Assembly: GCA_905235455.1 (NCBI GenBank)
Contig: CAJOLL010000003.1
Span: 1 to 60,651 of the forward strand
Origin: an uncultured Clostridia bacterium
GTDB lineage: Bacteria > Bacillota > Clostridia > Saccharofermentanales > Saccharofermentanaceae
DNA length: 60,651 nt
Direction: 5' to 3'
The notes beneath the pieces are model-generated. The model saw nothing but the letters and a program-made list of their open reading frames with translations, did no database searches and had not been told where the DNA came from. Shown one piece after another: positions 5,490-59,366 of this stretch. The position numbers and the translations under genes were made by a program. Position 1 is the first letter of the stretch. Every line of letters starts with the position of its first letter.

Positions 5490-5754
5490 ACCGAATTTCT
5501 CCTTGTGCAATCATTCTACCTTTTTCCCAAGAGTAAGACTACCTGAAAAAAGCAAAAATAGCAGGGGATAAATCGCTTTTTCTTTTACAAGCCGATATTT
5601 CATGAAATGCTCCGGTCAAAGAGGAGCCGGAGAAGTGCTTTTTTCGGGGATCATTTACGATAGCGCGTTCAATCGCGACTCTTTACTACTCGTAAATATC
5701 CGAAATCAATAGTATAATGAGTGAAAACAGACTCAATATGGAGGAGGAGAAGCT

Positions 5755-5856
5755 ATGATTTGGAGTCAAGATGGAGGAAAAATGACCCTCATTGCGCTGA
5801 TTATCGCCGGGATCGTGTTTCTGCTCCGGTATTTGTATTCTAAGTTCTTCTCTTAA
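5755..5856 (+). CDS. 33-aa single-pass membrane peptide
   Basis: ATG 5755 is preceded by an exceptionally strong ribosome site (GGAGGAGGAG, 6 bases away). The frame encodes 33 residues: a polar head ending in a second Met, a hydrophobic helix (TLIALIIAGIVFLLRYLY) and a basic tail. A TATAAT box lies at 5713-5718, without a good -35. Its stop overlaps the stop of the convergent amidase gene by three to four bases. Small hydrophobic peptides of this kind can be toxins, membrane-protein regulators or stress peptides; nothing here decides between these. Coding potential rests on the ribosome site and the helix. Confidence 0.5.
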   Translation: MIWSQDGGKMTLIALIIAGIVFLLRYLYSKFFS

Positions 5857-7328
5857 AGGGAGATCACTTTCCTGCCGAACGGGATCTCATATCCCCACGG
5901 TGCAATATCTTCGAATGTCTTCGCGACGGCAAGTACGTCTTCGTCGCGGAATTTCTTTCCGATGATCTGCATACCTACAGGAAGGCCCTCCTTCGTAAGT
6001 CCGGCCGGAACGGAGGCCGCAGGATTCCCGGTAAAGTTAGAAAAGAACGTCTCACAGAATCCGATCAGGGGTTCTATCTCTCTGCCGTTCATCTCGAGGG
6101 GACCTTTTGTATTTCCGTCCTCTGCATTTCGAACCGGCGGACATATCGTCACCGGTGACAAGATAATGTCATATGTATCGAAGATATCCTGCATCGCATC
6201 AAGCATCTCCGTGCGGAGTTCATTAAAGTAACGATAGTCCATCACGGTAGAGCGAAGCGCCAGTTCATTCCAGTAGATGAATTCTTCCGGCAGTTCCTCT
6301 CTGTGATCTCTGACCAGATCGAGGCCTTCTTTTTTCCAAAGCTCCATATCGATCGCCGTGTCGATACTGATGCTTCTGCACCAAAGTTCGGCAAATTCAT
6401 TCTGTGTGTGACGGAAAGAAAAGTGCACGGGCTCTATGGCTGCACCTGCTTCTTCAAGTTTTTCGGCAGCATTTTGCACGATCGTGGCCACCTCCGGATC
6501 GACAGAAAAGATATCGAAGTCCGTGGTGAATGCAATCTTCCAATTGCGGATCGTTTTTTTCATAAGTTCGGTAAAATCACGTTTCCCGTGATCAATACTC
6601 AGCGGATCTCTGGGATTATAGCGCGCCATGTAATTCAGCAAGACTGCGCTATCCAAAACGGTCCTTGTGATCGCACCGTTAAAGCAGTACGGATGTGTCG
6701 CCGTCCATCCATCCGGGCGGCAGATACTCGGTATCGTTCCGACAGACGCCTTGAATCCGAAGCATCCGCACCAGGCCGACGGGATGCGGATCGATCCGCC
6801 GCCGTCCGATCCTTCCGCGATCGGGAGCATGCCGTCTGCGACTGCCGCAGCGGAACCTCCGGACGACCCCCCGGAATTATATCTGGTATCAAAAGGATTT
6901 CTCGTCGGCCCGTAAAGATAATTGTCGCAGGTACCGCGCATCGCAAATGCCGGGGCATTGGTCTTCCCGACTGCGATCGCTCCGGCTCCTCTTGCCGCAA
7001 TATAGAACATAGAATCTTCCGGATCTTCACGGATCAGCGACTTAACTCCGCCGTGGGAATTCGTCCAGCCCTTCTTCGAAGGAAGGAAGTCCTTGAGACC
7101 CACCGGGACGCCGGCCAGAGGACCCACTTCCTCATGACGCAAAAGTTTCTCTTCCAGTGCTTTTGCCTCGGAAAAAGCATCATCAAATTTCGTATATGTG
7201 AATGCATTCAGGCTGGGATTTCTCTTTTCGATACGCTCTTGGAAATACCGGATCACTTCTGTAGGAGTGATCCGGCCGGACCGTACTTCATTACCAAGTT
7301 CTACACCTGAAAGTTTCTCCAGCTCCAT
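5853..7328 (-). CDS. Amidase signature enzyme
   Basis: A 491-aa amidase-signature (AS) serine hydrolase. The Ser-cisSer-Lys triad is visible: Lys in GVPVGLKDF, the cis-Ser in NSGGSSGGSAAAVADG, and the nucleophile Ser in GSDGGGSIRIPS. Length fits free-standing amidases better than GatA, and no gatB/gatC is nearby. Substrate is unknown (candidates are aliphatic or aryl amides). ATG 7328 is preferred because AGGAAGAGGA sits 8 bases upstream. It follows the transporter gene on the same strand by 29 bases, so the two are probably co-transcribed. Confidence 0.85.
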   Translation of the reverse strand: MELEKLSGVELGNEVRSGRITPTEVIRYFQERIEKRNPSLNAFTYTKFDDAFSEAKALEEKLLRHEEVGPLAGVPVGLKDFLPSKKGWTNSHGGVKSLIREDPEDSMFYIAARGAGAIAVGKTNAPAFAMRGTCDNYLYGPTRNPFDTRYNSGGSSGGSAAAVADGMLPIAEGSDGGGSIRIPSAWCGCFGFKASVGTIPSICRPDGWTATHPYCFNGAITRTVLDSAVLLNYMARYNPRDPLSIDHGKRDFTELMKKTIRNWKIAFTTDFDIFSVDPEVATIVQNAAEKLEEAGAAIEPVHFSFRHTQNEFAELWCRSISIDTAIDMELWKKEGLDLVRDHREELPEEFIYWNELALRSTVMDYRYFNELRTEMLDAMQDIFDTYDIILSPVTICPPVRNAEDGNTKGPLEMNGREIEPLIGFCETFFSNFTGNPAASVPAGLTKEGLPVGMQIIGKKFRDEDVLAVAKTFEDIAPWGYEIPFGRKVISL

Positions 7329-7357
7329 AGAAAACGTCCTCTTCCTGTGCCAGAAGG

Positions 7358-8107
7358 TCAAGCCGCTGTTTCGGCCTTTGGCATCAGGTCGATATACTCC
7401 TGGCCGATCTTCTCTTTCTCCCAGCGCTTCGATATGCGGTATCCCATCGGGGAGAATACGGCTTCCAGAATAAGTTCTACAAGCATCGATGTAGTTGAGC
7501 AGATCAGTACCTGCGTCCAGTTCCAGCCGAAGAAGACATGGGAGACCATCGCAGAAAATACGAAATTATCGACCCACTGGGCGATACCCGTGGAGATCAG
7601 AGATCTCTTGGCAAAACCGACGAAGTTTCCTTTATCGGCGCGTCCGATCAGGTGGTTGAGACCGGAGTTTACGAGCGTGGAAAGAAGCATCGCCGTTGCC
7701 GAACCGACCACGACATACCAGGATCCGCCAAATGTACTGTCGATCCCGGAAGAAACGAGCTCGCCTGTTACGGCATCCGGTGCAGAATAGTAGGCTGCCC
7801 ACGAGCCCGGTGTCATCGACAGAAGTTTAAAGACCAGCACGCAGATCACATTGATGCCCATCGCGAGGATCGAGATCTTCGTCGCGGCTTTCGCGCCAAA
7901 ACGCTTGCAGATGCAGTCCATACAAAGAAACGAAATCCAGGAAAGCGCCAGACCGCAATTGAGGCAGAAATACTCCGAGCGGTAGAGCTCCTTACTCGCC
8001 ATAAGGTTCATGAAAACAACAGATAGGATAAAGGTGACGGTGACCATCGCAGGCACACCGCGCAGAAGGGCTTTATAGTCCTCTTTCACGCGAGAGATTG
8101 CAGACAT
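7358..8107 (-). CDS. Queuosine-precursor/VUT family transporter (YhhQ-like)
   Basis: A 249-aa polytopic membrane protein with about six hydrophobic segments, including VTFILSVVFMNLMASKELY near the N-terminus and LSTLVNSGLNHLIGRAD in the middle, typical of the VUT/YhhQ (DUF165) family that imports queuosine precursors (preQ0/preQ1). The ribosome site AAAGGAG lies 8 bases before the ATG. A sigma-A promoter and a compact hairpin precede it (8140-8222), in keeping with riboswitch control. The downstream amidase may be co-transcribed; no other queuosine gene is in the window. Confidence 0.75.
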   Translation of the reverse strand: MSAISRVKEDYKALLRGVPAMVTVTFILSVVFMNLMASKELYRSEYFCLNCGLALSWISFLCMDCICKRFGAKAATKISILAMGINVICVLVFKLLSMTPGSWAAYYSAPDAVTGELVSSGIDSTFGGSWYVVVGSATAMLLSTLVNSGLNHLIGRADKGNFVGFAKRSLISTGIAQWVDNFVFSAMVSHVFFGWNWTQVLICSTTSMLVELILEAVFSPMGYRISKRWEKEKIGQEYIDLMPKAETAA

Positions 8108-8139
8108 TATTATTTTCTCCTTTGGTTTTAATCTTTTAC

Positions 8140-10848: not shown

Positions 10849-12078
10849 CTATCTGTGTTTTTCGGCTTTGGCGAGTAATCCCATTTCGTCGATGATCCTT
10901 TTTGCGCGCTGTACTACCGGAAGTTCACGGTTTGCCACCAGTCTTCCGATGGGTGTCTCCCTGCGTTTCTCGTACTCGGCCACCGCCTCATCAAAGGTCA
11001 GTTTCAGCGTGGAAAGATGGAAATCATTGATCTCGTCTTCCGTTAAGTGCTTCTCGCCGAAGGACTTTACTTTGCAAAGGAAATAGTTGCTCAGGTTATG
11101 TCTGTGGATGATGTTATAGTAGTCGCTGACCATCCCGATCTTACAGATGACATCTACTTCTGCGCCTAGTTCTTCGCTGAGTTCACGCCGGATCGCCATA
11201 TTCAGGTTCTCTCCTTTCTCCACTCCGCCTCCGGGAGTCTCGATCATTGTCGCCTTACCGAACATGTCATCGCGTTCGGCGCGGATGAAATAGAAGTTTC
11301 CTTCTTCATCGAAAACAATACCTCTTGCGATCCACCGGTCATGGTCAATGTATTCTAATGGCCACTCATTATCCGTAAGTTCATTTCGAAGTTCGGCCCT
11401 CTTCTCCAGCCGAACACCGTTTTCAAAGATATAGTACGGGCGGGATCCGATGACCTGGACCTCTTCCCCATCAATGAAAAGCGTATCTTCCTCCGGAAGT
11501 GCGATCACTTTCCCTTTCTCAATCGAATAATTCGTAAGAAACGCGGTGACACGCTCGTGATCTTCTTTCGTTTTTGCATTGGTATAGTGCGCATCCAGTG
11601 AGATTCCGGAAAGCACATCAAACCCTTCCGTATCCTGAAGTCCGACATCGTTCGGATCTTCGGTGATGGCCGTCATGATGTCCTTCCCGAAAATGATCTC
11701 TCCTGCCGAGCTTCCGAATACGACTCCATCTCCCTGAAGGTATTCCTTGATCTTGGCAAAAGCACCGCTATCCTTCAGTCCTTTTAGAAGTGAGAATGTA
11801 TTTCCGCCGCCGATAAAGAGTGCACAATAATCCGAGAGCTCCTTCGTAAGGATCTCTTCATACGAGCGGACCATCTCTACTGAAGGGACTTTGACGCCGC
11901 CTTCATTTAATTCATTTTGGATCCACCCATAGCATTCATCGAGAGTATGTGTCTCTTCAGGCATCGCCAGCGGAATATAAAGAAGCGGCTTGGTGTGGTC
12001 GATCACCGCATTGAAAACAGGATAGGTATCCTCCATCTGTTTTCCGAATCCGCCGCCACATAAGAACAGTTTCGCCAT
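10849..12078 (-). CDS. Peptidase S51 (Glu/Asp dipeptidase-like) fused to a Nudix hydrolase
   Basis: A 409-aa two-domain protein. Residues 1-210 are a class-I-glutaminase-like peptidase S51 domain: CALFIGGGNTFSLLKGLKDS, then GVVFGSSAGEIIFGKDI with the nucleophile Ser in GSSAG. Residues about 240-395 are a Nudix domain whose box is intact (GGGVEKGENLNMAIRRELSE followed by ELGAEV; G-x5-E-x7-REL-x-EE-x-G). S51 enzymes cleave Asp-X dipeptides or act on cyanophycin-type products; Nudix enzymes cleave nucleoside diphosphates linked to other groups. The joint substrate is unknown. ATG 12078 has a strong AGGAGG site inside the upstream GNAT gene's end. Confidence 0.8.
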   Translation of the reverse strand: MAKLFLCGGGFGKQMEDTYPVFNAVIDHTKPLLYIPLAMPEETHTLDECYGWIQNELNEGGVKVPSVEMVRSYEEILTKELSDYCALFIGGGNTFSLLKGLKDSGAFAKIKEYLQGDGVVFGSSAGEIIFGKDIMTAITEDPNDVGLQDTEGFDVLSGISLDAHYTNAKTKEDHERVTAFLTNYSIEKGKVIALPEEDTLFIDGEEVQVIGSRPYYIFENGVRLEKRAELRNELTDNEWPLEYIDHDRWIARGIVFDEEGNFYFIRAERDDMFGKATMIETPGGGVEKGENLNMAIRRELSEELGAEVDVICKIGMVSDYYNIIHRHNLSNYFLCKVKSFGEKHLTEDEINDFHLSTLKLTFDEAVAEYEKRRETPIGRLVANRELPVVQRAKRIIDEMGLLAKAEKHR

Positions 12079-12081
12079 TTC

Positions 12082-12648
12082 TTATTTCCTCCTCACAGAT
12101 ATATTCTGCTCATACATCTTCTTCGGAAGGATCGCCCGGTAGATCGAGCAGTAGCCCTCCGCGATTGCTTCTTCGTCATGGACACCCTTCAACGGATATT
12201 CCAGAAGAAGGTACTCCACTCCGAAAACGAGCACATGCACGTTCGTGTTGATTGCTCCGGCCTGAAGATAAAAGTCCAGCCGCCTTTCGCGCGCCCTCTT
12301 TTCTTCCTCGGAAACATCCGATTCCGGATCTTCGATCTCGATAATCGTCACTTCGGAACCGCACTGCTCCACCGCTCTACGAAGGAACTCGGAGCCGACT
12401 CCTTTTCCGCGCATCTCCGGCACCACTGCATAGTAGTCCAGAAGACACACATCCTTTTCAAACACGAAGAAAGCATATGCAAGGAATTCTCCGTCCTCGG
12501 CAAAAGCACCGGCGCAGAGGTACCGCCCTTCCCGGATCGACTGCTCGATTCGGGAAAGTGGTTTTCGCTCGTCATCGGGAAAATCGTAGTAGAGATATTT
12601 CTCATAGACTTCCCGTATCTCTTCGATTGTCAGAATACGTGTCTGCAT
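12082..12648 (-). CDS. GNAT family N-acetyltransferase
   Basis: A 188-aa GNAT enzyme; YYAVVPEMRGKGVGSEFLRR carries the Arg/Gly acetyl-CoA loop (R-G-K-G-V-G). It is the first gene of a two-gene operon with the S51-Nudix fusion, whose start lies 3 bases after this stop. Acceptor unknown. The C-terminal part (VLVFGVEYLLLEYPL) matches the short GNAT group often annotated only as acetyltransferase. Confidence 0.8.
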   Translation of the reverse strand: MQTRILTIEEIREVYEKYLYYDFPDDERKPLSRIEQSIREGRYLCAGAFAEDGEFLAYAFFVFEKDVCLLDYYAVVPEMRGKGVGSEFLRRAVEQCGSEVTIIEIEDPESDVSEEEKRARERRLDFYLQAGAINTNVHVLVFGVEYLLLEYPLKGVHDEEAIAEGYCSIYRAILPKKMYEQNISVRRK

Positions 12649-14281: not shown

Positions 14282-15073
14282 TCAGCTGATCGTGCAGAGT
14301 TTTCCTCGAAGAATATAACCGAGTTTCTCATAGCACTTGTTGGACGCAACATAGTCCGCATCCGTGTAAAGCATCGGAAGATATCCTTCTTCTTTCGCGA
14401 TCTTCGATACCTCATATACCAGATGGTCCGCATAGTGACGCCGGCGGTATTCAGTTCTGGTAAATACCAATCCGATGGACGCCATATCCTGTACCGGATG
14501 CCAGTGGCAGCTCGCAACAAATTCCCCGTCATCCGTCTTCCAAAGATACATCGATCCTTCGCGGATCCCGTTTTCCGCATCGATCCTGTACTGTTCTCTA
14601 CTGGCCTTATCGATTCCGACAGCATCATGGAATATCTCGAAAAAGTCCGTCAAAACATCGACATCTTCCATCGTGCACTTATGGATGTGCCCGTCTGTCA
14701 CGGTTTTCGGCGGGATCAGCTCCGGGCAGTCATAGGCAAAAAGATTCGTCGAGATCGAAAGATGAAGTCCTTCCTTTTCGGCTCTTTTTATAAAGTAATC
14801 CGCCAGTTCGTACTTGATGTTGAAACGGTGCTTTCCATCCATGACCTCGTTTTCTTTTGCTATCTGAAAAGCACTTTCCATCTCCTCCTCGGATGCATCG
14901 TCCGGCATCCAGATCCACACCGGATACGGCTGCCCCGTAAAGCAGAGAATGAACCTTTCGTGATCCGTCAGGCGAAGCTCACATTCCCCGCCAATGATCC
15001 TCGAAAGGACCGAGAAGGTATATTTGTCCTGAGCAAGTAATGCATAGTCTCTTTCATCCACAAAATTGTCCAT
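14282..15073 (-). CDS. GNAT family N-acetyltransferase with N-terminal extension
   Basis: A 263-aa protein: about 125 N-terminal residues of GNAT-like but degenerate character (CFTGQPYPVWIWMPDDASEE), then a C-terminal GNAT domain with IGLVFTRTEYRRRHYADHLV and YVASNKCYEKLGYILRGKL. The R-R-x-H-Y-A loop is a weak version of the acetyl-CoA signature. This two-part layout is seen in Firmicutes tandem-GNAT proteins. Acceptor unknown. AGGAGA lies about 8 bases before ATG 15073. Confidence 0.75.
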   Translation of the reverse strand: MDNFVDERDYALLAQDKYTFSVLSRIIGGECELRLTDHERFILCFTGQPYPVWIWMPDDASEEEMESAFQIAKENEVMDGKHRFNIKYELADYFIKRAEKEGLHLSISTNLFAYDCPELIPPKTVTDGHIHKCTMEDVDVLTDFFEIFHDAVGIDKASREQYRIDAENGIREGSMYLWKTDDGEFVASCHWHPVQDMASIGLVFTRTEYRRRHYADHLVYEVSKIAKEEGYLPMLYTDADYVASNKCYEKLGYILRGKLCTIS

Positions 15074-15352: not shown

Positions 15353-15925
15353 ATGACACTTGGTGAGAAGATTAAAGAAGCTAGAAAAGCAGCCGGCCTT
15401 TCGCAGGAACAGTTCGCAGAGAAGATGAATGTTTCACGATCCGCAGTAGCAAAATGGGAAACGGATAAGGGTCTTCCGGATATCGGAAACCTTAAGGTCA
15501 TGGCAGAGCTTTTGCATGTAAGTGTGGACTATCTTATAGATGATGGAAACAAACCGGAGTTCAACGAGATCTCCGAACCGATCGATCTCAGTGCTTTTGA
15601 AAAGACGGGAAAATGCAGAAGCAAGCAGGATGCCGCATGCGTCACGAAGAACGCAAATGCGGATGCCATCTATGCGCTGATCCGTTCAAAAAAGCTCTCC
15701 GTCAAAGAGCAGCTCGTCGATTTCGTAGTAGCCCCGGGAATCATCCAGGTGGCAGATTACCTTAGAGATAATCCTGCATTCTATCTCGTAGAACGCGGCA
15801 GCCGTCAGTTCCTTGTAAAGGTAACCAAAGACTTCATCACCACATCCGACCTTGCAGAAAAAGTCTCCCCTTCCAAGTTCGTCCTCGGATCATACAAGTT
15901 TAGGAAAGCCTATCAGTTGAAGTAA
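15353..15925 (+). CDS. XRE-type HTH transcriptional regulator
   Basis: A 190-aa regulator. Residues 1-65 form a Cro/C1 helix-turn-helix (LGEKIKEARKAAGLSQEQFA and SRSAVAKWETDKGLPDIGNL), the form common in Clostridia. The C-terminal 110 residues (AIYALIRSKKLSVKEQLVDF) match no domain I recognise and could be a ligand or partner domain. ATG 15353 follows TGGAGGTGCACT. Its end overlaps the convergent SAP-domain gene by 13 bases. Its target is unknown; the adjacent divergent GNAT gene is a candidate. Confidence 0.85.
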   Translation: MTLGEKIKEARKAAGLSQEQFAEKMNVSRSAVAKWETDKGLPDIGNLKVMAELLHVSVDYLIDDGNKPEFNEISEPIDLSAFEKTGKCRSKQDAACVTKNANADAIYALIRSKKLSVKEQLVDFVVAPGIIQVADYLRDNPAFYLVERGSRQFLVKVTKDFITTSDLAEKVSPSKFVLGSYKFRKAYQLK

Positions 15926-18628: not shown

Positions 18629-19318
18629 TTATTTCAGATCGCAGAGAAGTCCCGCATAGGAGAATTTATAAAGAAGTGCTTTGTTGCCGTAGAACTCCAC
18701 TTCTTTTCCTTCCACTTTCCCGGCCTGGATCTCTTTTGCGCCCTCGATGAGCCTGCCGATCAGATCAGGCATCACCGGGAAAGATCCGTGCATCGGATAG
18801 ATCTCGTCGAACTGTCCCTGCAGTTCGGAAAGATGTTCGAGGCTATCGATGTAGCGGTCCAGATTCCGCATGGGACCAAACATGAAGATATTGCTGTCCG
18901 AGACCGTATCGCCGCTGATGAGAACGCGGTTTTCCACATCCAGGATCGCAATGCTTCCCGGGGTGTGTCCCGGAATATCGATCACGCGAAGGATCCTTCC
19001 GCCCAGGTCAAATTCATCGCCCTCTTTGACAGGAAGGATCTCGCATTTTCCGCCGAAATTTCTGTAGTTCTCTTCTTCAGCCGGAGACATATATACTTCG
19101 GCAAAAGCACCGTTCCCGGAGATGTGATCGGGATCGGCGTGCGTGTTGATAAGGATAAGCGGAAGATCCGTGAGGCCTTCTGCGATTCTCCTTGCATCCG
19201 GTGCATTCATGCCTGTATCCACAAGTGCAGCTTTCTCTTTTCCGCAAAGGAGCAGGAAACGTACTCCGCCGTCTTCGATCCGCCAGGTGGTGTCATTGAT
19301 CCGGATTACTTCTGCCAT
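18629..19318 (-). CDS. MBL-fold metallo-hydrolase
   Basis: A 229-aa metallo-beta-lactamase-fold protein. The metal motif is INTHADPDHISGNG, an H-x-D-x-D-H variant in which the second His of the canonical H-x-H-x-D-H is Asp. Further ligands are in DIPGHTPGSIAIL and at the C-terminal YPMHGSF. This fold covers glyoxalase II-like thioesterases, lactonases and others; the Asp variant is common in Clostridia but substrate cannot be assigned. Monocistronic; its upstream region contains one of the repeated GTGCTTTT octamers (19332-19339). Confidence 0.8.
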   Translation of the reverse strand: MAEVIRINDTTWRIEDGGVRFLLLCGKEKAALVDTGMNAPDARRIAEGLTDLPLILINTHADPDHISGNGAFAEVYMSPAEEENYRNFGGKCEILPVKEGDEFDLGGRILRVIDIPGHTPGSIAILDVENRVLISGDTVSDSNIFMFGPMRNLDRYIDSLEHLSELQGQFDEIYPMHGSFPVMPDLIGRLIEGAKEIQAGKVEGKEVEFYGNKALLYKFSYAGLLCDLK

Positions 19319-19415
19319 GGTTCATCCTCCAGTGCTTTTGACGTAGTTCATACATAGATTATATCACTCGCCAAAACCGAAGAAAGAACTGCCGTTTTCC
19401 CGATATAAACCTCAC

Positions 19416-19965: not shown

Positions 19966-20295
19966 TTATGCTTCTTCGTAAACCTCTTTTGCCAGCCGGA
20001 ATACGGCCCATGCCTTCGGCCATCCGCTGTAGAAAGCAACGTGTGTAATGATCGCTGCCATTTCCTTTTGTGTCACGCCGTGGTTTCTGGCATTGCTGAT
20101 ATGGTATTTCAGCGAGCTGTCCGTGATGCCCTGCGACATCAGGGCTACGACTGTGATGATCGATCTGGTTTTCAGATCGATGTCCTCATTATTCCAGTTT
20201 TCTCCGAAAAGCACATCGTCATTAAAGTGTGCAAATTCCGGTGCAAATTCTCCTAATGCATCTCTGCCTGCTGTCTGTACGATTTTCTCTGCCAT
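19966..20295 (-). CDS. Carboxymuconolactone decarboxylase family protein
   Basis: A 109-aa CMD-family protein of the usual short length. RSIITVVALMSQGITDSSLK and NHGVTQKEMAAIITHVAFYS are the conserved helices. The paired cysteines of AhpD-like alkylhydroperoxidases are absent, so a peroxidatic function is unlikely; the branch is closer to gamma-carboxymuconolactone decarboxylase-like proteins, often found beside reductases in anaerobes. ATG 20295 follows AGGAGGAAAG. Middle gene of the LysR-linked operon. Confidence 0.85.
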   Translation of the reverse strand: MAEKIVQTAGRDALGEFAPEFAHFNDDVLFGENWNNEDIDLKTRSIITVVALMSQGITDSSLKYHISNARNHGVTQKEMAAIITHVAFYSGWPKAWAVFRLAKEVYEEA

Positions 20296-20314: not shown

Positions 20315-21166
20315 TTACTTTTCAAAAGGAAGATGCATCTGCGCATATTTTTCTTCCTGGGCATTATCTGCGTGATAGTATCTCTTGGTGCCATCCAGTT
20401 TACTGATTTCTTCCATTTCTTCCGAAGTTAGTGTGAAGTCAAAGATGTCCCCGTTATCCCGGATGTGATCCGGATTTTTCGATCCCGGGATCGTAATGAA
20501 TCCCATCTGTGTATGCCAGCGGAGAATGATCTGCGCACTGCTTTTTCTGTATTTATCGCCGAGTTTTTTGAAGATCTCTTCATCGATCAGACTTCTGTCT
20601 CCATGACCCAGCGGATACCATCCCATGGTCTTCGTGCCGTATTCCGAAAGCCTTTCACGGATCTCTTTCTGTGTAAAATACGGATGCACTTCCATCTGGA
20701 TCACGTGGGGCTTGATCTCCGATTCAGAAAGAAGTCTTTCCAGTTTCTCTCCCTGGAAATTAGAGATGCCGAGGGATCTTGCTTTTCCTTCTTTATATGC
20801 CTTCTCCAGCATCTTGTATCCGGCCATGAAGTTTCCCGCCGGCTGATGGATGAAAAGAAGATCGACGTAACCAAGTCCCAATCGCTCCAGTGTTTCCTCC
20901 ACCGCCGTTTCTTTCTCATACATCGTAGCCCAGATCTTCGTGGAAACAAAAACTTCCTCTCTCGTGACGATCCCTTCGGAGATGGCCTTCTTCAGTGCTT
21001 TTCCCACGGAAATTTCATTCATGTAGGCATTCGCGGTATCGATCATACGGTAACCGAGCTTGAGCGCGGCATATACTGACTTTTCCGTATCTTCCGGACT
21101 GATCATAAATGTACCGATTCCTAAGACAGGTACTTCGACTCCGTTGTACAGTTTTACGTTTTCCAT
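20315..21166 (-). CDS. Aldo/keto reductase
   Basis: A 283-aa aldo/keto reductase. The tetrad is visible: Asp and Tyr in YRMIDTANAYMNE, Lys in VFVSTKIWATM and His in VDLLFIHQPAG. The NADPH-binding C-terminal ITIPGSKNPDHIRDN is intact. It reduces aldehydes or ketones with NADPH; the specific substrate is unknown. ATG 21166 is chosen because GGAGG lies 8 bases upstream. First gene of the operon divergent from the LysR regulator, which likely controls it. Confidence 0.9.
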   Translation of the reverse strand: MENVKLYNGVEVPVLGIGTFMISPEDTEKSVYAALKLGYRMIDTANAYMNEISVGKALKKAISEGIVTREEVFVSTKIWATMYEKETAVEETLERLGLGYVDLLFIHQPAGNFMAGYKMLEKAYKEGKARSLGISNFQGEKLERLLSESEIKPHVIQMEVHPYFTQKEIRERLSEYGTKTMGWYPLGHGDRSLIDEEIFKKLGDKYRKSSAQIILRWHTQMGFITIPGSKNPDHIRDNGDIFDFTLTSEEMEEISKLDGTKRYYHADNAQEEKYAQMHLPFEK

Positions 21167-39778: not shown

Positions 39779-39914
39779 TGTGTTTTCTCCTTACAACGTC
39801 AGTGCCCCTATTATAAAACCTGACGGAAAATAAATAAACCTCAAATATCAGGAAGAGGCATGGATCCGTAAGAATTCCATACGTTTTCATTGGGAAAAGC
39901 ACCCGGGCTGCACA

Positions 39915-41708: not shown

Positions 41709-44324
41709 TCATTGCATCAGGTCCGGTGCGGGTTTTGAGAAAAGATATCCCTGCGAATAGTCAACATCGTAACTGATGATCTTATTCTGGATCTCCTCGT
41801 TCTCGACAAACTCGGCAATAATGCTGATTTTGATCGACGACATCGATTTCCAGCCGGAAATAAGCGCCAGCAGGATCTCGGACTCCGAATCGTCGCAGCA
41901 CTTTCTGATGATCGATCCGTCGATCTTGAGATAATCCGCATGGATACTGAGAAGATGCTGCAGATTGGAAAAACCGGAACCGAAATCATCGATCGCGACT
42001 TTGCCGCCGAACTCATGGATACGGTCGACAAAAACGACCAGTTCATTGTAGTCGTCGATGTCTTCGCTCTCTAAGATCTCGAAAACGAAATTCTCCGGAT
42101 ACGGAACGGAAGACAGATTATCGTAGATCAGTTCAAGGACCTCTTTGTTCTTGATGTCACGGTAACTGATATTGATACTCACGCTGACGTCTTCTATATA
42201 GCGGAAGCGCTCAAATACCTTTTTGATCATGATCTTACTGATTGCATCATAAAGCACGCCGAAAGATCGGGCGACCTCGAGGAAGCTTTCCGGATAATAC
42301 AAATTTCCGTTTTCATCTTCGATACGCATCAGCGATTCATAATGGTGGATACTGCCTTCCTTATTGTCGTAGATGCCTTGGAAATAAGGGATGATCTTAT
42401 CGTTGTTGATCGCATAGTTGATGACACTTACCATGCGATAGCGTTCGCGGATGCTCTCTTCATCGATGTCATTTTCTTCCGAAGCATCATAGACAGAGAA
42501 CTGCATATTCTTCGCTCTCATTTCCATGCGCGCGGAATTATACATCGCCATATAGTTATTTTCATCGCAACCGTCGAGCACGATGAAGATCGGCACGATC
42601 GAGATCAGCTCCTCGGTAAATTCAAAAAGCTCTCTTTGCAGGGATTCCATGTCATGTACAAAATTCGAAAGCGTCGTCCTGTACGAAGGCACCGCGATCG
42701 CGATCATCCAGTGATCGATCATGTACATGTGGAATTTGTGTGAGTTCGTAAAATCGAAACACTTGCGGATATAGTTCTTATACGTCAGTTCGACAAGATG
42801 CGAAGAAAAAACTCTCTCCATCTCGGACTGCTCCAGGACATTGATCATGCACAGACGGTCATACCCCTTGCTCTTGATATCGATACTGAGAGCCGCTTCA
42901 TTCGGGATCTCGTCACTCTCGGAATAAAGAATGATCCTTTCACACTCACGGACAAAAGCAAGGATCTTTGAGGCTTCTGCCTTATCTTCCATATCCTGGA
43001 TCTTTCCTTCAATCTCGATCAGGATATTGAGCATCGCACGGCTGTCTCTCGAAAGCGCCTCCGTGTGTGAGAACGAGTACGGGTTATATTCCTGCGTGCA
43101 TTGCTTTTCGCCCAGTACGGATACGACAAAAGCACCTCCGCCGAGCACGTTTCTGCCGTTGGAATAAACGATCTCGCCCGCCGTTACGCATCCGCACATA
43201 TTTGAATTCTCATATGGCGCAAGTTCCCACTTGGCGCAGTTGAGAAAGCCTGATGTCCGGACACTGCTGATATATCCGAAGACGGTCTCCGCCTTCACGA
43301 AATTTTCCACACGCTGAAAAAGCGCCCGGTTGTCGGAAATGATCTTACCGTCGTGCACGAATGCTCTCTTTATTTGCTTTCCGGGGCGGATGTTAAATCC
43401 CGCGAAGAGATAATCCTTTTTCGACTTCGTATCCACATCCTCACGGATCGAATACACTTGCATATTGGACGGATCGCCCTTCGGGAAAACGTGATCCAGA
43501 CTTACATCTTTCTTATATTGCAGCTGGATCGGGATGTTCTCGTCATCTGCGTAGACGAACGGGAACAAATAAAGCGTCTCCGGATGCTCGTCCAGAAGAC
43601 CGTTAATACCGAGCCTGCAGGCATCCACTGCTTTCTTTCCGTCGATGGAAAGGATAGCGGACTTAAACGAATCCGTGATCTCCGCTTCGTCACCGATGGC
43701 CTGTACTCCCGTGGCAAAAGAACTGCAGCTTTCAAGTTTATCGCCGGAAAGGGCCGCGATCAGGATCGAACGGTCCGACCATCCTTTTTCGTTAAACACA
43801 AAACCATCTGCTGCAGTCGCAGTCGACCCGGACTGAGGAAGTGAAGCGACACCGCCGGTCATCGGAACGCTCGGAAAGAAATCATTACATCTGTCTACAA
43901 AGAGATTCGCGTCCTTGAACTGTCCCGGGAAAAATGTCAGAAGAAGTTTGGTATTATCTTTGACGAATTCTTTTTTGATCATACCGCAGAGCATATCCAC
44001 CGGAAGCGGCATGCCGTTATAGTCATCCATGATCGGGATCATTTCCGAATGCACTTTTGCATCGGACATCGTCGATACGGAGATCACGCAACGATTCGAT
44101 GCGAAATAGCCTTTGTTGACGATAGCGGCACAGCTGGTGCCGAAGATTACGGCCTGCGGGACAAGTTCTTTTACAAAACGGGCAAGTTCCACCGCCTCAT
44201 CCGCCAGATGGATCGCCGTATGAATGCGGATAAGAATATCACTCTGATCAGCCGAAAGATTCAGCTGTTTCAAGGTGCTTGAAAGTCTCGCTCTGGAAAT
44301 GTACTGAAAATTCCAAGTGAACAT
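41709..44324 (-). CDS. FIST sensory domain-EAL c-di-GMP phosphodiesterase
   Basis: An 871-aa signalling protein. Residues about 20-370 are the FIST_N and FIST_C domains (PQAVIFGTSCAAIVNKGYFA; MCGCVTAGEIVYSNGRNVLG), which are thought to sense small ligands such as amino acids. Residues about 430-600 are a degenerate GGDEF-like region. Residues about 625-868 form an EAL domain with its catalytic residues: ESLMR (in place of EALxR), SINISYRD, FVFEILESEDI, KVAIDDFGSGFSNLQ, DYLKIDGSII, IAEFVEN and SQGYLFSKP. It should therefore hydrolyse c-di-GMP. ATG 44324 is preceded by AGAGGG. No membrane helix. Confidence 0.8.
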   Translation of the reverse strand: MFTWNFQYISRARLSSTLKQLNLSADQSDILIRIHTAIHLADEAVELARFVKELVPQAVIFGTSCAAIVNKGYFASNRCVISVSTMSDAKVHSEMIPIMDDYNGMPLPVDMLCGMIKKEFVKDNTKLLLTFFPGQFKDANLFVDRCNDFFPSVPMTGGVASLPQSGSTATAADGFVFNEKGWSDRSILIAALSGDKLESCSSFATGVQAIGDEAEITDSFKSAILSIDGKKAVDACRLGINGLLDEHPETLYLFPFVYADDENIPIQLQYKKDVSLDHVFPKGDPSNMQVYSIREDVDTKSKKDYLFAGFNIRPGKQIKRAFVHDGKIISDNRALFQRVENFVKAETVFGYISSVRTSGFLNCAKWELAPYENSNMCGCVTAGEIVYSNGRNVLGGGAFVVSVLGEKQCTQEYNPYSFSHTEALSRDSRAMLNILIEIEGKIQDMEDKAEASKILAFVRECERIILYSESDEIPNEAALSIDIKSKGYDRLCMINVLEQSEMERVFSSHLVELTYKNYIRKCFDFTNSHKFHMYMIDHWMIAIAVPSYRTTLSNFVHDMESLQRELFEFTEELISIVPIFIVLDGCDENNYMAMYNSARMEMRAKNMQFSVYDASEENDIDEESIRERYRMVSVINYAINNDKIIPYFQGIYDNKEGSIHHYESLMRIEDENGNLYYPESFLEVARSFGVLYDAISKIMIKKVFERFRYIEDVSVSINISYRDIKNKEVLELIYDNLSSVPYPENFVFEILESEDIDDYNELVVFVDRIHEFGGKVAIDDFGSGFSNLQHLLSIHADYLKIDGSIIRKCCDDSESEILLALISGWKSMSSIKISIIAEFVENEEIQNKIISYDVDYSQGYLFSKPAPDLMQ

Positions 44325-49900: not shown

Positions 49901-50656
49901 ATGAACACGGAGATCAAACAAATACTTGCATCACTTGAGCGCGGCGATATCACTTCGGAGGAAGCTCTCCTGAAGTTGAAAGCCGCGCCTTTTGATGATC
50001 TCGGATTTGCGAAAGTGGACAACCACAGGAGTATCCGCCAAGGAGTGGCCGAGGTGATCTATGGCGCGGGAAAAACACCGTCGCAGATCATCGGGATCAT
50101 GAAGTCCATGATCAATAACGGGCAGGACCGTATCCTGATTACTCGTCTTTCTGAAGAGGCTGCTTCCGAAGTCAATGCCGCTCACGATATCACTTACTGT
50201 AAAGATGCTCGCATCGGATATTACGGTGCTTTTCCGAAAGCCGACGGCATCGGAAAGATCGTCGTCGCAACCGGTGGTACCAGCGATATCCCCGTTGCGG
50301 AAGAAGCCGCCATCACAGCGGAAAGCTACGGTAACGAAGTCGTCCGTCTGTACGATGTGGGTGTTGCCGGACTTCACCGCCTTCTTGCACATAAAGAAGA
50401 GATCATGTCGGCAAGCGTCATCATCGCAATCGCCGGCATGGAGGGCGCGCTCGCGAGTGTCATCGGCGGACTTGCCGACTGCCCGGTCATTGCCGTTCCT
50501 ACATCCGTCGGATATGGTGCTGCTTTTGAAGGATTATCCGCACTGCTCTCGATGCTCAATTCCTGCGCCAGCGGCGTTTCGGTCGTTAACATCGACAACG
50601 GATTCGGCGCCGGTTATTTGGCCAGCATGATCAATCATATGGAGGCAAAAAAATGA
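49901..50656 (+). CDS. larB: Nickel-pincer cofactor biosynthesis protein LarB
   Basis: A 251-aa LarB. Domain evidence: RIGYYGAFPKADGIGKIVVA, GGTSDIPVAEEAAITAESYG and AIAGMEGALASVIGGLADCP, which match the NCAIR-mutase-like LarB fold. LarB carboxylates the pyridinium ring of nicotinic acid adenine dinucleotide and cleaves it, the first step toward the Ni-SCS pincer cofactor of lactate racemase (LarA). Its stop (TGA 50654-50656) overlaps the ATG of larC in ATGA. LarE and LarA are absent from the window, so the cofactor's user is not shown. Confidence 0.9.
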   Translation: MNTEIKQILASLERGDITSEEALLKLKAAPFDDLGFAKVDNHRSIRQGVAEVIYGAGKTPSQIIGIMKSMINNGQDRILITRLSEEAASEVNAAHDITYCKDARIGYYGAFPKADGIGKIVVATGGTSDIPVAEEAAITAESYGNEVVRLYDVGVAGLHRLLAHKEEIMSASVIIAIAGMEGALASVIGGLADCPVIAVPTSVGYGAAFEGLSALLSMLNSCASGVSVVNIDNGFGAGYLASMINHMEAKK

Positions 50657-52775: not shown

Positions 52776-53696
52776 TCAGCCTTTCTTCGCATCTGCCGCC
52801 GCGGCAAGTGCTTTTTTATGGGAAATGATCTCGGAAGTGAGATCCTTATGGATGATGATCTCGCCTCTTCTTGTCGCCCAGCAGCCGGTCGTGATACCGA
52901 CACCCAGTGTTGCCGGGTGGTGCGCTGCCGCCTCGATATTTACATTTAATACAGTGTGGCTGCCGCCGAATCCCAGAGGCGCAATGCCGAGAGAATCGAG
53001 CCCCGCCTGGATCTCATCTTCGAGCTTGGCGACTTCCGGATAAGAAGAACGTGTGCCGATCGGACGCAGAAGTGCCTTCTTGGAAAGCATCGCGGAGGTC
53101 GCCGCGCAGGTGCCGAGACCGATACCAATGCACAGCGGCGGGCAGGCATTCACGCCCCAGTCGAGGATCGTCTGATAGACGAATTTCTTGACGCCCTCAA
53201 CGCCCTCAAGCGGCATCAGGACCTTACTTCTGCCCGGAAGCGAGCATCCGCCGCCGGCCATATACATGCGGAGGCGCAGGTCCGAAGAACTCGGAACAAG
53301 ATCATATTCGATATAAGGGGCGCCGTAGCCGGTGTTATCGCCGGTATTGTGTTCGCCAAGCGGCTCCACGACATTCGGACGGAGCGGCGTCTCGAGCGTT
53401 GCTTTTCGAGCAGCTTCAACGAGTACACTTTCGATATCCGCCAAATACGGAAATTCCGTTCCGACTTCGACAAAATACTGAAGGACGCCCGTGTCCTGGC
53501 AAAGCGGGCGGTGAAGTTCTTTTGCAAGGGAAAGATCCTCGATCATGCAGTCATACATCGTCTTCGCATTCTCGATCGATTCCGAATCGCGAAGCTCCCG
53601 AAGTCTCTTCTCCACGTCATCCGGCAGGTAAATGCCCGTCATTCCGGTAAAATCCTGCACGGTCTTAACAAACTGATTTCTCAATGCTTCTTCCAT
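52776..53696 (-). CDS. fumA: Fumarate hydratase class I, alpha subunit
   Basis: A 306-aa alpha subunit of the [4Fe-4S] fumarase/L-tartrate dehydratase family. The three cluster cysteines are in RPLCQDTGVLQYF, AGGGCSLPGRSKV and CPPLCIGIGLGTCA. The cluster makes such enzymes oxygen-sensitive, which fits an anaerobe. GFGGSHTVLNVNIEAAAHHP is also conserved. It is the first gene of the fumarase operon and is separated from the GH115 gene by a long hairpin. Fumarase in fermentative Clostridia often works in the reductive branch or in aspartate use; the direction is not shown here. Confidence 0.9.
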   Translation of the reverse strand: MEEALRNQFVKTVQDFTGMTGIYLPDDVEKRLRELRDSESIENAKTMYDCMIEDLSLAKELHRPLCQDTGVLQYFVEVGTEFPYLADIESVLVEAARKATLETPLRPNVVEPLGEHNTGDNTGYGAPYIEYDLVPSSSDLRLRMYMAGGGCSLPGRSKVLMPLEGVEGVKKFVYQTILDWGVNACPPLCIGIGLGTCAATSAMLSKKALLRPIGTRSSYPEVAKLEDEIQAGLDSLGIAPLGFGGSHTVLNVNIEAAAHHPATLGVGITTGCWATRRGEIIIHKDLTSEIISHKKALAAAADAKKG

Positions 53697-53890: not shown

Positions 53891-56800
53891 TTATTTTCTC
53901 TCAGTTTGTACCGGCTGATTCTCTTTGGGACCATTATAGGAGTCCATCGGTGCTTTCCCCTCTTCGAAAAGCACCAGTTTCATTAGCACGAAGTTCGGGC
54001 TGACCGCGCGGATCCCGATGGTGTTCTTTCCTTCCTTCAGATCGAGTCCGACCTCGGTGATACGGATGTTATCGAGCACGCCCTGCTTCCAGATCAGCTG
54101 GTTATCTCCTACGGCAAAGCCCTCCGGGATCATGTTGACCTTCTTCTCTTTTCCGTCATTAACGCTTACACCGAAGAAGATCTCCGGTTCGCGCGTCGGC
54201 GGATTGCTCGGGTTGGTCATCAGGCGCAGCGCATATTTTCCGGCCTTCGGAACATCTAGAAGATAGGTGAGTTTCGGCGCGTCCCCGGCCTTTTTAAAGG
54301 TCACATCCTGCGGGAATGCTTTCATGGCGGACATGCCGCGGTTATAGTCCGGGATCTTTTCAAAGGAGCCCGCCTTGCCCGGGAGGTTCTCCGTAAAGTT
54401 CTCCGCAAGGATGGAGATATACTCCGGCGCATCTGTCGTAAGCGGTACTTCCACATCTACAAAAGCGCCTTCGCCGAATCTTATCGTGATCTTTGCGGGT
54501 TCGTTCTTTTTTGCAGCCGCGCTTCCCTTCTTCGGAAGTTTCGAGCGGTCGATCTTTATCTTGACGATCTTTCTCGTTCTCGGATCCACCGTTCCGGATG
54601 AAGGTGTGATCTGAAGGCACTTCGCATCGCACTCGATACGGAAAGATATCTTCTTATCGCATCCTGTGGTCAGTTCAAGCGCGCCTTCTTTTACACGCGG
54701 GTCGAGGAAAGAAGGAAGGACAAGTGCTTTTCGCGTCCAAAAATAACCTTCTGAATAATCGCCCGTATCCGGGACCGTCACGATCAGGCGGTCTTTATTG
54801 CCCGGCAGGAACGTGTGCACGACCGGATACTGGCAGCCTTCTTCGCACCAGTTTTTGAAACCGATATGCTCGGAAAGACCCATGCCGTACCACATTCCGC
54901 CGTGGATCTTATGCAGCTCATCCACGATCTCCTGATCGAATTCCAAACACTCGCTGACCTTCTCCGCGAGCGTCATCGCGTATGTGCTTCCGATCTTCGC
55001 ATATGCGTGATTCTGCGTCGTCAGAAGCCACATCTTCTGCACATTGAGATTCGCCATCAGCGGCAGATACACAAGTTCATAGAAGCGGTATGCCACGTTC
55101 GCGGAGAGTTTCCCGGTGCCTGCGCCGGCAGTTTTTGCGGAATCCTTCGCTACGCCCGCGCCGGCAGCTTTTGCGGAAGCCTTCGCTGCGTCCGCGCCGT
55201 CGGTTTTTTCGGATGCCTTTCCGGTGCCCGCAGCAGTGAGCGTGTCATACAGTTTGGAAGTAGTGCTCATGAGCTTGTCGATCCTCTTGAGAAGATCTTC
55301 GGTTTCCCCGTAAGCAAACGGCGCATAGACATCGTCGTTCATCGCTTCGGTTCTGCGTGCGGCCGTGATCCGGGTATATCCGAGAAGGAGGTCATTGACC
55401 TGCTTTTTCTGTGCCGCCGAAAGCGTCGTTCCGAAGTATTTCTCGACGAACAGCTTCGTATATTCATGTGCGGCATTCTTGTTGGAGGTGCCCCATTTAT
55501 CGAAGTCATAGGCCAGATCGAGGAAGAACGAGAGCGGGTATTCCGTGCTGAAAATATCGCCGACGTTGACGATCCACAGATCTCTGATGCCGCAGTCGTA
55601 TGCAGTCGTCATCTGCTCCCAGACCTTCGGAAGATGAGAGGTATTGAACCACTCGTAAGAGATCGGATATCCGTGATAATCGAAATGGTAATACATGCCG
55701 TACCCGCCCTTGTGATTGCGCATTTCCGGCGTCGGGACGGTCCTTAAGTTTCCGAAGTTATCGTCACAGAGCATAAGTGTCACGCCCTCAAGTTCCGGAT
55801 CTCCCATGAGTCCGGGCGTCTTCTCGTCACCGTAAAAATACGGCTCGACTTCTTTATAGAGCGCGAGCATTCTCGGCACTTCATCAAGGTCCTTATTGAC
55901 GTACTTTTTGATCAGGCGGTTCTGCGTTTTCAGGACCTTCCGAAGAAGATCAATGTTGTCCTTAAGCGTCGCTTCCTTGCCCATGATGGCGGTGTCTGCC
56001 TCGCCACGCATTCCGACGGTGATGACGTTTTCAAACTTGCCACTACGGATCAGTCCGTCTTCCCAGAACTTCGTGATGCCCTTCTCGTTACTGAGGAAAT
56101 TCCATGCGTCGCCGTAGATCGAGCCCGGCCCGCGCAGATACTTATATTCCTCGCCCTGTCTGAGGCACGGCTCATGGTGGGACATGCCCATGACGACACC
56201 GAGTTCATCTGCCAGTTCCGCGCTCGCAAGTCCCGGTCCGTCATTCGGGAAGATCGCCGACCACATCGCCGGCCACATATAGTTGCCCTTCAGGCGCAAA
56301 AGCAACTCGAAAACGTGCTCGTAGCATTTGGCATTAAATCCGCCGAAGCGCTTGTTGCACCAGTTTCCGAATGCCGGCCATTCATCGTTGATGAAAAATC
56401 CGCGAAACCTTACCGAAGGCTCCTTGGAAACAAACTCATATTTTCCGGGGATCGTTATTTCCGTTTTTCTTTCCGGCATGACATCCAGCCAGTCGATAAA
56501 CGGCGATACCCCGAGCATTTCTGACAGTGCAAAAAGACCGTAGATCGTTCCTCTCTTATCCGATCCCGCGATCACCAGCGCTGCCTTATTCTTCGGCAAA
56601 AGCACTTTTCCTTCGCCTGTTTGGCTTCCTTTTTTCTTCAGACCGACCTCTTCCGCCGGGAGCTTTTCGATGATCTTGTGAAGATATACTTCGCGCTTCC
56701 CGCGAACTTTCGAAAGGTCGAGAAGGCCTGATTTTTCAAGATTTGTAAGAGTGTTACTCGTGGAAGATCCTTTTGAAGCACCCTTATTTTCACCTGTACC

Positions 56801-58421: not shown

Positions 58422-58642
58422 AGTTTCATCCTCCTTCTGACAACATACTAATTTCCACGGTGCTTTTCAACAAGAGCATGCCTTCGGAATTAATGTCTTC
58501 TATTTGCATATCCGTTTGCAATTAGGGGATTCCCGAGCTTTTCGGAATGCGTCTGTGTTTGTAATCCGGGGATCGTCGATCTTTTCGGGAAGCGTTTCCA
58601 TACCGGGAGCACCCGCGCGAAGATCACCCATCAATTCACGCA

Positions 58643-58651
58643 TGGTATAAT
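58643..58651 (+). promoter_or_regulatory. Extended -10 promoter of the response-regulator operon
   Basis: TGGTATAAT (58643-58651), an extended -10 element; no good -35. ATG of the regulator is 53 bases further on. Confidence 0.5.
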
Positions 58652-58703
58652 GGGTTCAGATCAATGGCGCAGTTATTTCCTGCGCGGGGGACTGGGAGAA
58701 AGT

Positions 58704-59366
58704 ATGCCGGACATCATCATTTGCGAAGACAACAAAGAGATCGGGGACATTTTAAGTGCTTTTCTGAAAAAAGAAAACTACACCGTCGCGATCGCCCCGA
58801 CGGGAGAACGCGCACTGGAGCTTTTCGAGAAGTACGGGGCCAAACTCATCGTTCTGGATATCATGCTTCCGGGGATCGACGGATTTTCCGTGTGCAGTAA
58901 GATCCGCGAGACTTCCAATACACATATCATCATCGCGAGCGCCAGATCCGACAAGGACAGCAAGCTCGAAGGCCTTTCCCTCGGTGCCGACGACTACATT
59001 GAAAAGCCCTACGATATCGACATCCTGCTGGCCAAGATCCGCGGGATCTTTAAGCGCAAATACGCAATCGAGGAAGTCATCGACGGCGACCTTCGTCTGA
59101 ATACCGTGCAGCGGACGGCAACGCTTGCCGGGAAACCTCTGGTCATGACGGAAAAAGAATTCACGCTTCTCCTGCTTCTGATTGAAAACAAAAATACGAC
59201 TCTGAAAAAAGAATATATCTTCAACAATATCTGGGGATCCGACAGTGATTCGGAGATCCAGACGCTGACAGTTCACATCAAGTGGCTCCGCGAGAAGATC
59301 GAAAAAGATCCGAAGAATCCGAAGCACATCATCACAATCTGGGGCACAGGGTACCGCTATGAATAA
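58704..59366 (+). CDS. OmpR/PhoB-type response regulator
   Basis: A 220-aa two-component response regulator. Receiver residues: DN in IICEDNKEIG, phospho-acceptor Asp in LIVLDIMLPGIDGF, and Lys in YIEKPYDIDIL. The C-terminal DNA-binding winged HTH of the OmpR type ends VHIKWLREKIEKDPKNPKHI then ITIWGTGYRYE. ATG 58704 follows GGGAGAAAGT. Its stop overlaps the histidine kinase start by 8 bases. Targets are unknown; no resistance or transport genes follow within the window. Confidence 0.92.
   Translation: MPDIIICEDNKEIGDILSAFLKKENYTVAIAPTGERALELFEKYGAKLIVLDIMLPGIDGFSVCSKIRETSNTHIIIASARSDKDSKLEGLSLGADDYIEKPYDIDILLAKIRGIFKRKYAIEEVIDGDLRLNTVQRTATLAGKPLVMTEKEFTLLLLLIENKNTTLKKEYIFNNIWGSDSDSEIQTLTVHIKWLREKIEKDPKNPKHIITIWGTGYRYE

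Follow-up and report, generated by a model that had tools for sequence, protein, structure and literature searches.

This locus raises one question: why does a single octamer, GTGCTTTT, recur so often, and on both strands, along the window, i.e. the whole stretch of 60,651 nucleotides analysed here from an uncultured Clostridia bacterium? The answer we consider probable is a DNA uptake sequence (DUS/USS-like) with the octamer at its core, serving as a self-tag for a predicted type IV pilus.

An exact position check of the window gives 30 cores, 17 on the forward and 13 on the reverse strand (Table 1), every one at the coordinate that the earlier note had listed from a hand count. A purine (A or G) stands directly before 29 of the 30 cores, as counted there, and the following base, described as mostly G or C, is one of these two in 25 of 30. 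The uniform expectation of 1.9 copies was too low: Markov models of the window of order 1, 2, 3 and 4 expect 1.8, 3.9, 4.1 and 6.7, which corresponds to an excess of approximately 4.5- to 17-fold. The maximal model, of order 6, expects 27.7, with its 7-mers inflated by the word itself. The copies at 31696 and 31759 are not independent, because both lie in one 63-bp tandem-repeat element.

Table 1. The 30 GTGCTTTT cores of the window, with their agreement with the longer pattern RGTGCTTTTS
Position	Strand	Matches RGTGCTTTTS	Remarks
5635..5642	+		
7157..7164	+	yes	
11758..11765	-	yes	
12502..12509	-	yes	
14867..14874	-	yes	
15591..15598	+	yes	
19103..19110	-	yes	extended: then gccgaagta
19332..19339	+	yes	
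20207..20214	-		preceding base T
20995..21002	+	yes	
22540..22547	-		
25408..25415	-	yes	
28732..28739	+		
30556..30563	+	yes	
31696..31703	+		copy 1 of 63-bp tandem repeat
31759..31766	+		copy 2 of 63-bp tandem repeat
35667..35674	-		
35816..35823	+	yes	
37087..37094	-	yes	
39895..39902	-	yes	
41084..41091	+	yes	
43128..43135	-	yes	
50226..50233	+	yes	
52808..52815	+		
53967..53974	-	yes	
54724..54731	+	yes	
56598..56605	-	yes	extended: then gccgaagaa
56883..56890	+	yes	extended: then gccgaggaa
58460..58467	+	yes	
58756..58763	+	yes	

The excess extends across the source genome (G000). In a sample of 422,537 non-N bases, made up of the window and 20 stretches, GTGCTTTT is the top over-represented 8-mer, with 202 copies against 29.6 expected under Markov order 3 (45.5 under order 4) and a density of 0.48 per kb. 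For the whole genome, RGTGCTTTTS is found 570 times (275 forward, 295 reverse) and its reversed pattern, an imperfect control as it contains CG, 23 times (12 and 11), so the word is not at the background level that would have spoken against it. No domain restriction of the copies was seen across the sampled contigs, and their spacing is random, not more even (gap CV of 1.03, 201 sites). A gap without listed copies on contig C6 (16.4-68.3 kb) was discarded as evidence, with 16 kb of N in each of two 20-kb stretches there.

Ordinary bias, in the form of codon or dipeptide use, the T-runs of terminators or a dispersed repeat family, is one way to obtain such an excess. About 80% of the G000 copies are inside genes, where certain frames are preferred, and 5 of the 202 sampled copies are inside 63-bp repeat elements. 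However, synonymous shuffling of the G000 genes yields approximately one eighth of the observed count (20.1 +/- 3.9 against 160, an excess of about 8-fold), and the same comparison in three further genomes gives 50 vs 5.2, 24 vs 2.9 and 41 vs 5.7. Inverted word pairs within 120 bp are also few (five in the 422-kb G000 sample). These shuffles, together with the alike flanks and the ungapped alignments described below, contradict ordinary bias, which we regard as hardly tenable. The excess outlasts Markov correction to order 4 as well as synonymous codon shuffling, and the earlier reading of an “uptake, processing or protein-binding word, not codon bias” is borne out by this and by the genome-wide counts.

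Intergenic DNA is denser in copies than genes in three of the four genomes tested: G000 (0.84 vs 0.43 per kb, with 42 of 202 sites intergenic, P about 2e-4), G007 (1.19 vs 0.48) and G005 (1.11 vs 0.47). There is no such preference in G002 (0.39 vs 0.37). An origin in a reading frame or amino acid motif (e.g. Walker A GKST from GGCAAAAGCACC) is ruled out by the codon shuffles and the intergenic copies. An intrinsic-terminator word, which would call for inverted pairs at gene ends, was also rejected: the G000 sample has only the five pairs mentioned above, and convergent sites are 16 of 70 placed intergenic sites, against 11.7 expected from bases.

The pattern RGTGCTTTTS, proposed from the window, proved to be only part of the motif, as it misses a downstream half that is conserved to about +19. 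The full motif is non-palindromic and spans about 25 bp, MRGTGCTTTT followed by the conserved pattern SSMRNRGNA..A, and roughly one turn of the helix separates its two halves. It is alike in three genomes and, pooling four genomes, in 77 intergenic, 135 antisense and 138 sense sites, that is, in intergenic DNA and on both gene strands. The palindrome GTGCTTTTCGAAAAGCAC, hinted at by a first logo, was rejected: the samples contain no exact dyad of GTGCTTTT and AAAAGCAC separated by 2 bases, and the second half fits MRNRGNA.

In related genomes, a comparison that the earlier note had proposed, the word is a property of one Clostridia genus. AGTGCTTTT and its close variants exceed 100 copies in each of the 23 genomes available for it, and the word is enriched in all of them (53-350 per Mb, 3.5- to 34-fold over the reversed pattern). 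Among 319 genomes outside the genus the highest density is about 49 per Mb, and the weak species of the genus (53-70 per Mb) nearly meet the densest sister-genus genome, G031, which has that value. Copies of GTTCTTTTNNMRNRGNA number 5-110 in each of the 23 genus genomes, against 0-3 for the reversed control. In six further species of the genus, a fixed matrix from G000 finds 12-57 sites (0.3-2.7 simulated), and in three species of other genera it finds 1-3 (0.3-1.0 simulated). No comparable word was found in the sister-genus samples G023, G025, G030 and G033, which cover 40-140 kb, a size at which a weak word could be missed. In two close relatives within the genus, G008 and G021, the word has shifted to GTTCTTTT/GATCTTTT with the flank unchanged.

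Alignments of orthologous genes gave 386 site observations, of which 374 are ungapped and 12 fall in gaps, so the copies are not insertions. At 80 of the 374 ungapped sites the other species is one base off the word. Sites are gained and lost by point mutation, and USS are likewise reported to arise by substitution in the available parts of PMC1626085 and PMC7811141. Over-representation drops with mismatch load (6.82, 1.37, 1.01), as it also does for one of six control words, GCTTTTGT (1.62, 1.21), which overlaps the word. In G000 perfect copies exceed background by about 172 and one-off copies (24 variants summed) by about 198, a softer consensus than reported for Haemophilus, and G006 has no one-off excess (65 vs 72.2).

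On mobile DNA, 16 stretches marked by VirD4 or portal genes hold together 19 copies against 27.5, a depletion that is not significant (P 0.057). A split into stretches with full-length VirD4 or portal and those with a truncated-profile VirD4, chosen after the counts were seen, gives 6 vs 18.1 (P 0.001). L176, one of the relaxase-bearing stretches, is not depleted (4 vs 3.6), and a phage portal was detected in 1 of the 23 genus genomes.

A motif with this history could also be bound inside the cell by a genus-specific protein with a part in chromosome organisation or segregation (nucleoid-associated or Noc/SMC-loader-like), with selection keeping hundreds of copies. Its length, its asymmetry and its two halves one turn apart suit such a protein, as does the genus-wide occurrence of the word. 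Sites are also shared between species above random 8-mers (148 of 374 vs 105.8 expected), a count that treats species pairs as independent, which they are not, and enters every shared site twice. On the other hand, the copies show neither domain limits nor regular spacing, are spread throughout genes on both strands, and turn over at a steady high total while the word itself shifts between species. Such turnover and shifts are more usual for uptake words. We consider a chromosome organiser improbable, though the leading alternative.

Short words over-represented on chromosomes also include Chi and the FtsK-guiding KOPS and SRS words, and the known examples of Chi and KOPS show a strong bias towards the direction of replication. 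The genome-wide frequency of the Clostridia word would agree with such a recombination or FtsK-guiding signal, and there is a slight leading-strand excess, 207 vs 170, where the strand was set by the GC-skew sign of the fetched stretches (skew below 0.03 dropped, contigs not placed on the chromosome). This ratio of 55 to 45 (P 0.06) is unlike the strong co-orientation of those words, and could come from the base skew of the leading strand itself. The strand check suggested earlier thus reveals slight bias only, in these counts and in the forward and reverse totals of the whole genome. A conserved half 10-19 bases downstream would be unexpected as well, and a Chi-like or KOPS/SRS-like role seems quite unlikely.

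A different DNA-processing site, for example the target of a defence or modification system that has to be preserved, would account for a genus-specific word and for an extended motif with adenines on either strand. Modification targets are usually not over-represented, and the degenerate downstream half is untypical, which makes this role very unlikely on the present sequences. Among uptake, processing and protein binding, the distribution appears to fit an uptake word best.

As for the machinery, the proposed search for comEA, comEC and pilin genes found type IV pilus genes, a ComEA-like protein, ComEC and DprA. ComEC is present in 20 of 20 chosen genomes. All 14 genomes chosen for PilB/PilT-type ATPases, a ComEA-type HHH domain and DprA have each of them, and 8 of these genomes belong to the genus; a pil operon is present in G012. 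The searched family and order mates that lack the word have the competence and pilus genes just as well, so gene presence does not explain it.

If the motif is an uptake sequence, its binding by a surface pilin of the predicted type IV pilus would lead to preferential uptake of kin DNA carrying it. Such a preference, together with recombination (molecular drive), would let copies accumulate at any place where the encoded protein permits it. The motif would be read by a minor pilin, and our guess at this receptor, from position and genus-wide presence, is a candidate minor pilin of 168 aa encoded downstream of pilN and found in 22 of 23 genus genomes. The candidate was not detected in G010, where the word is kept (123 per Mb). 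Its tip carries a zinc-ribbon-like C-x2-[C/H] ... C-x(2-8)-C pattern in 32 of 44 aligned relatives. The predicted structure is of low-to-middling confidence, and the top Foldseek rows are weak (E about 0.9) and suggestive only; they include chain I of RNA polymerases, which we take to be RPB9-type zinc ribbons. No row resembles ComP, a negative to which we give no weight.

The closest parallels are the uptake words of Gram-negative bacteria, given here from the available parts of the cited reports. The Pasteurellaceae USS (Hin-type AAGTGCGGT, extended AAAGTGCGGTCAATTTT; PMC12616744) likewise has an asymmetric 9-10 bp core starting AAGTGC and a less conserved downstream part (PMC12616744, PMC1626085). 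Genic and intergenic copies with the latter preferred, a point-mutation origin, two types between subclades and, in the part available, no significant orientation bias are further likenesses (PMC1626085). In contrast, the Clostridia core ends CTTTT and the USS core CGGT, and the flank SSMRNRGNA..A differs from the AT-rich downstream part of USS. The phylum and cell envelope are different too, and here the uptake role is predicted from sequence. The common AAGTGC may be chance. At 0.48 per kb the Clostridia word has about half the density of USS/DUS, which is about one per kb, and more even than random spacing is reported as a trait of these, not a defining one (PMC1626085).

With the Neisseriaceae DUS (GCCGTCTGAA) the word has in common many copies, lineage dialects and type IV pilus machinery (PMC12616744, PMC7811141), while the sequences are unrelated and DUS is described, in the available part of PMC1626085, without a flanking motif such as the one found here. 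The DUS receptor is the minor pilin ComP (PMC12616744, PMC7811141), of which the genus-wide minor pilin is a candidate counterpart by position and distribution. The Pasteurellaceae minor pilin ComN/PpdA, the predicted USS receptor (PMC12616744), is similarly proposed to read a dialect-bearing word, as the Clostridia candidate is from its position and distribution.

Uptake words are described from species in two families, both Gram-negative, in the available part of PMC7811141 (2020). Our literature search, with a reach excluding preprints and most subscription papers, found no Bacillota uptake word, and neither AGTGCTTTT nor AAAAGCACT printed as a whole word. We propose, tentatively, that self-recognition for natural transformation may have evolved independently in Gram-positive Clostridia, with a two-part word of about 25 bp that has dialects within a genus and is read at the type IV pilus tip by a zinc-ribbon minor pilin. 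The trick would then have been invented at least three times, Neisseria and Haemophilus included. An unrelated case in Clostridia would supply new material for asking whether receptor bias and drive or mate choice lies behind the evolution of such words. It would also lead one to expect natural transformation in these bacteria, and with it a possible genetic tool. The word shift within the genus offers a natural experiment to match receptor with word.

All 30 copies of the octamer GTGCTTTT (the word) that the earlier note had placed in the window were confirmed, and an order-3 Markov model expects about 4.1. The word is preceded by A or G in 29 of the 30 and followed by G or C in 25. The suspected excess holds genome-wide as well: in the source genome (G000; 2,172,243 bases, 161 contigs, 92 percent complete) the wider form RGTGCTTTTS occurs 570 times, 275 and 295 by strand, and its reversed pattern 23 times. 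Within a 422,537-base sample of G000, GTGCTTTT is the 8-mer of highest excess (202 vs 29.6 expected) and AGTGCTTTT the leading 9-mer under an order-4 model (108 vs 12.5 expected). The same 9-mer ranks first in samples of three other genomes of the genus (G002, G005 and G007).

Codon bias, which the earlier note had set aside, does not account for the word. Synonymous codons were shuffled within genes 30 times, on simple gene models made for this analysis, and G000 genes held 160 copies vs 20.1 +/- 3.9 after shuffling. Three other genomes held 50, 24 and 41 vs 5.2, 2.9 and 5.7. Copies in G000 genes are split into 78 sense and 82 antisense. In three of the four genomes, copies lie about twice as densely between genes as within them. 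Placed intergenic copies have no strong convergent or divergent preference (39 tandem, 15 divergent, 16 convergent; expected 43.7, 14.6 and 11.7).

Iterative matrices seeded with GTGCTTTT in G000, G007 and G002 yield largely the same extended motif. It has G at -5, A/C at -2 and A/G at -1, then GTGCTTTT, then C/G, C/G, A/C, A/G, any base, A/G, G at +14, A at +16 and A at +19. The motif looks similar whether the sites are intergenic (77), antisense (135) or sense (138), with four genomes pooled, and coding is therefore not its cause. Applied unchanged, the matrix from G000 gave these high-scoring sites against simulated background sequence: 57 vs 1.7 (G007), 40 vs 2.0 (G002), 18 vs 1.0 (G020), 12 vs 0.3 (G006), 29 vs 1.0 (G021) and 24 vs 2.7 (G008) within the genus, and 2 vs 0.3 (G033), 1 vs 1.0 (G023) and 3 vs 1.0 (G030) in other genera. 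A six-position flank score behind GTGCTTTT averages 3.2-4.8 in all eight genus samples; behind five control words there, some with few or no copies, it is 1.3-3.0. Three other-genus samples score 2.3, 2.7 and 4.0 behind GTGCTTTT, the last from one copy.

The word is enriched in all 23 genus genomes examined, at 53 to 350 copies per Mb, exceeding the reversed pattern 3.5- to 34-fold. It is scarce in 319 distinct genomes outside the genus, which come from two sets, one of 36 mates in the family and order and the other of 290 genomes sampled from the class. Highest among these are a sister-genus genome, G031, whose 84 copies over 1.7 Mb amount to about 49 per Mb and 2.8 times its control, and G154, with 71 over 1.7 Mb or about 42 per Mb; the genome sizes used are rounded. 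The genus boundary is sharp for most species and blurred for the five weakest members (53-70 per Mb).

Dialects were also found. In G008 and G021, close relatives with 94 percent identity over shared genes, matrix refinement shifts to GTTCTTTT and GATCTTTT with the flank unchanged. The GTTCTTTTNNMRNRGNA pattern has 5-110 copies in all 23 genus genomes (reversed control 0-3) and 0-4 in 13 of 14 order mates, in a comparison that had no family mates outside the genus. The exception, G040, has 11 copies, ten of them one identical sequence.

The copies did not arise as insertions. Of 386 site observations in alignments of orthologous genes from ten species, 148 are shared, 80 differ by one base, 146 differ by at least two and 12 are in gaps. 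Sharing is higher than for random 8-mers (148 vs 105.8), in pairs that overlap in ancestry and with each shared site counted twice. Over-representation at zero, one and two mismatches is 6.82, 1.37 and 1.01 for the word. One of six control words also declines, namely GCTTTTGT, which overlaps the word (1.62, 1.21 and 1.04). A comparable graded fall is described for uptake words (PMC1939737).

By the sign of GC skew, 207 copies in eight genomes are leading and 170 lagging (P 0.06); a stretch was excluded if its skew was below 0.03 or its length less than 8 kb. Gaps between copies in G000 are exponential (CV 1.03). Of two mobile-gene markers, VirD4 has 14 matches in 10 of the 23 genus genomes and phage portal 2 matches in one. 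The pooled count up to 6 kb from these markers did not differ significantly from expectation (19 copies vs 27.5 expected, P 0.057). A post hoc split gave 6 copies vs 18.1 (P 0.001) on whole stretches with full-length VirD4 or phage portals, and 26 vs 25.7 on stretches with a truncated-profile VirD4 relative. Four of these six copies sit in one relaxase-bearing contig (L176), and a relaxase adjoins three of the six full-length VirD4 genes (one to three proteins scanned per site). The shortage in this post hoc split fits foreign DNA without the tag.

As for uptake machinery, ComEC is present in 20 of 20 chosen genomes, and PilB/PilT-type ATPases, a ComEA-type HHH domain and DprA are each present in 14 of 14 (8 genus, 4 family, 2 order). 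Because relatives that lack the word carry these import and pilus families too, the word calls for a reader or a history specific to the genus. In a genus-mate (G012) the pil genes run prepilin peptidase (reverse), pilB, a pilT-like gene, pilC, pilM, pilN and two prepilin-like genes. G012 contains an exact copy of the examined part of the public contig JAFZBN010000019.1, "Clostridiales bacterium isolate RGIG7616", from water buffalo omasum, which places the source genome in a Clostridia lineage. The first minor pilin, a prepilin-like product downstream of pilN, is a candidate reader and nothing more. A one-sequence query found it in 22 of 23 genus genomes (all but G010), with no full-length match in 26 outside relatives; five of these match partially, the best (G028) at 38 percent identity over 128 residues. 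The sister-genus genome G030 has a pilin with similar tip residues in the corresponding position. C-x2-[C/H] ... C-x(2-8)-C occurs at the tip in 32 of 44 aligned relatives. The predicted structure is of middling confidence and resembles solved pilins weakly.

In most points the word resembles the uptake words of Pasteurellaceae (USS) and Neisseriaceae (DUS), as described in PMC1626085, PMC1939737, PMC7811141 and PMC12616744. It is non-palindromic, lies in genes and, by preference, between them, has little bias in orientation, is specific to a lineage and has dialects there, is graded by mismatch, arises by substitution, and is accompanied by pilus and import genes. Unlike them, the Clostridia word has a lower density, a softer consensus and random spacing. 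Given the match in most points, we judge with moderate confidence that it probably functions in the manner of an uptake sequence. The main rival is a site for an intracellular binding protein. Preferential uptake is the defining feature of uptake sequences, and the claim here is one of likeness, not of membership. A 2006 paper and a 2020 paper (PMC7811141) confine uptake words to two Gram-negative families. Searches of an open-access library, with few subscription papers and no preprints, showed no report of one in Bacillota.

Lastly, some other features were seen (table below). Two exact probes, 19-21 bases long and taken from the copy of a 63-bp element in L017, had no match at other loci examined. 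The copies of this element in the window and L017 share their flanks, and the CGGGCGA end recurs there as a short inverted copy. The element looks like a small dispersed repeat, either built around the word or having acquired it. GTTCTTTTAAAAAGGCA is likely a repeat element, and CTACTGGGTATT is probably a dispersed repeat.

Other genes and repeated sequences, with their locations
Feature	Location	Observation
Large xylan-type enzymes (Pfam)	window 27074-31432 and 53891-57055	GH10 with CBM4/9 and Listeria-Bacteroides repeats; GH115
FIST-EAL protein	window 41709-44324	FIST domain fused with EAL domain in one protein
63-bp element	window 31690-31840	two tandem units, intergenic; most units of the element begin RGTGCTTTTCGCCCGTAA
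63-bp element	L017 9760-10040 (minus strand), contig C4	three tandem units, intergenic
Pilus-type ATPase match	G000 C9:17491-18552	contains two in-frame TGA codons
GTTCTTTTAAAAAGGCA	G040 C1 (1.8-Mb single-contig genome, same order)	ten identical copies; once in G037
CTACTGGGTATT	G021 contig C2 (L062-L068)	separate repeated word, 12 sites in 140 kb, plus longer forms
Palindrome CTTTTCGAAAAG	L069-L075 (G033, sister genus)	3 sites, expected well under 1
Palindrome CTTTTCGAAAAG	L055-L061 (G008)	5 sites, expected well under 1
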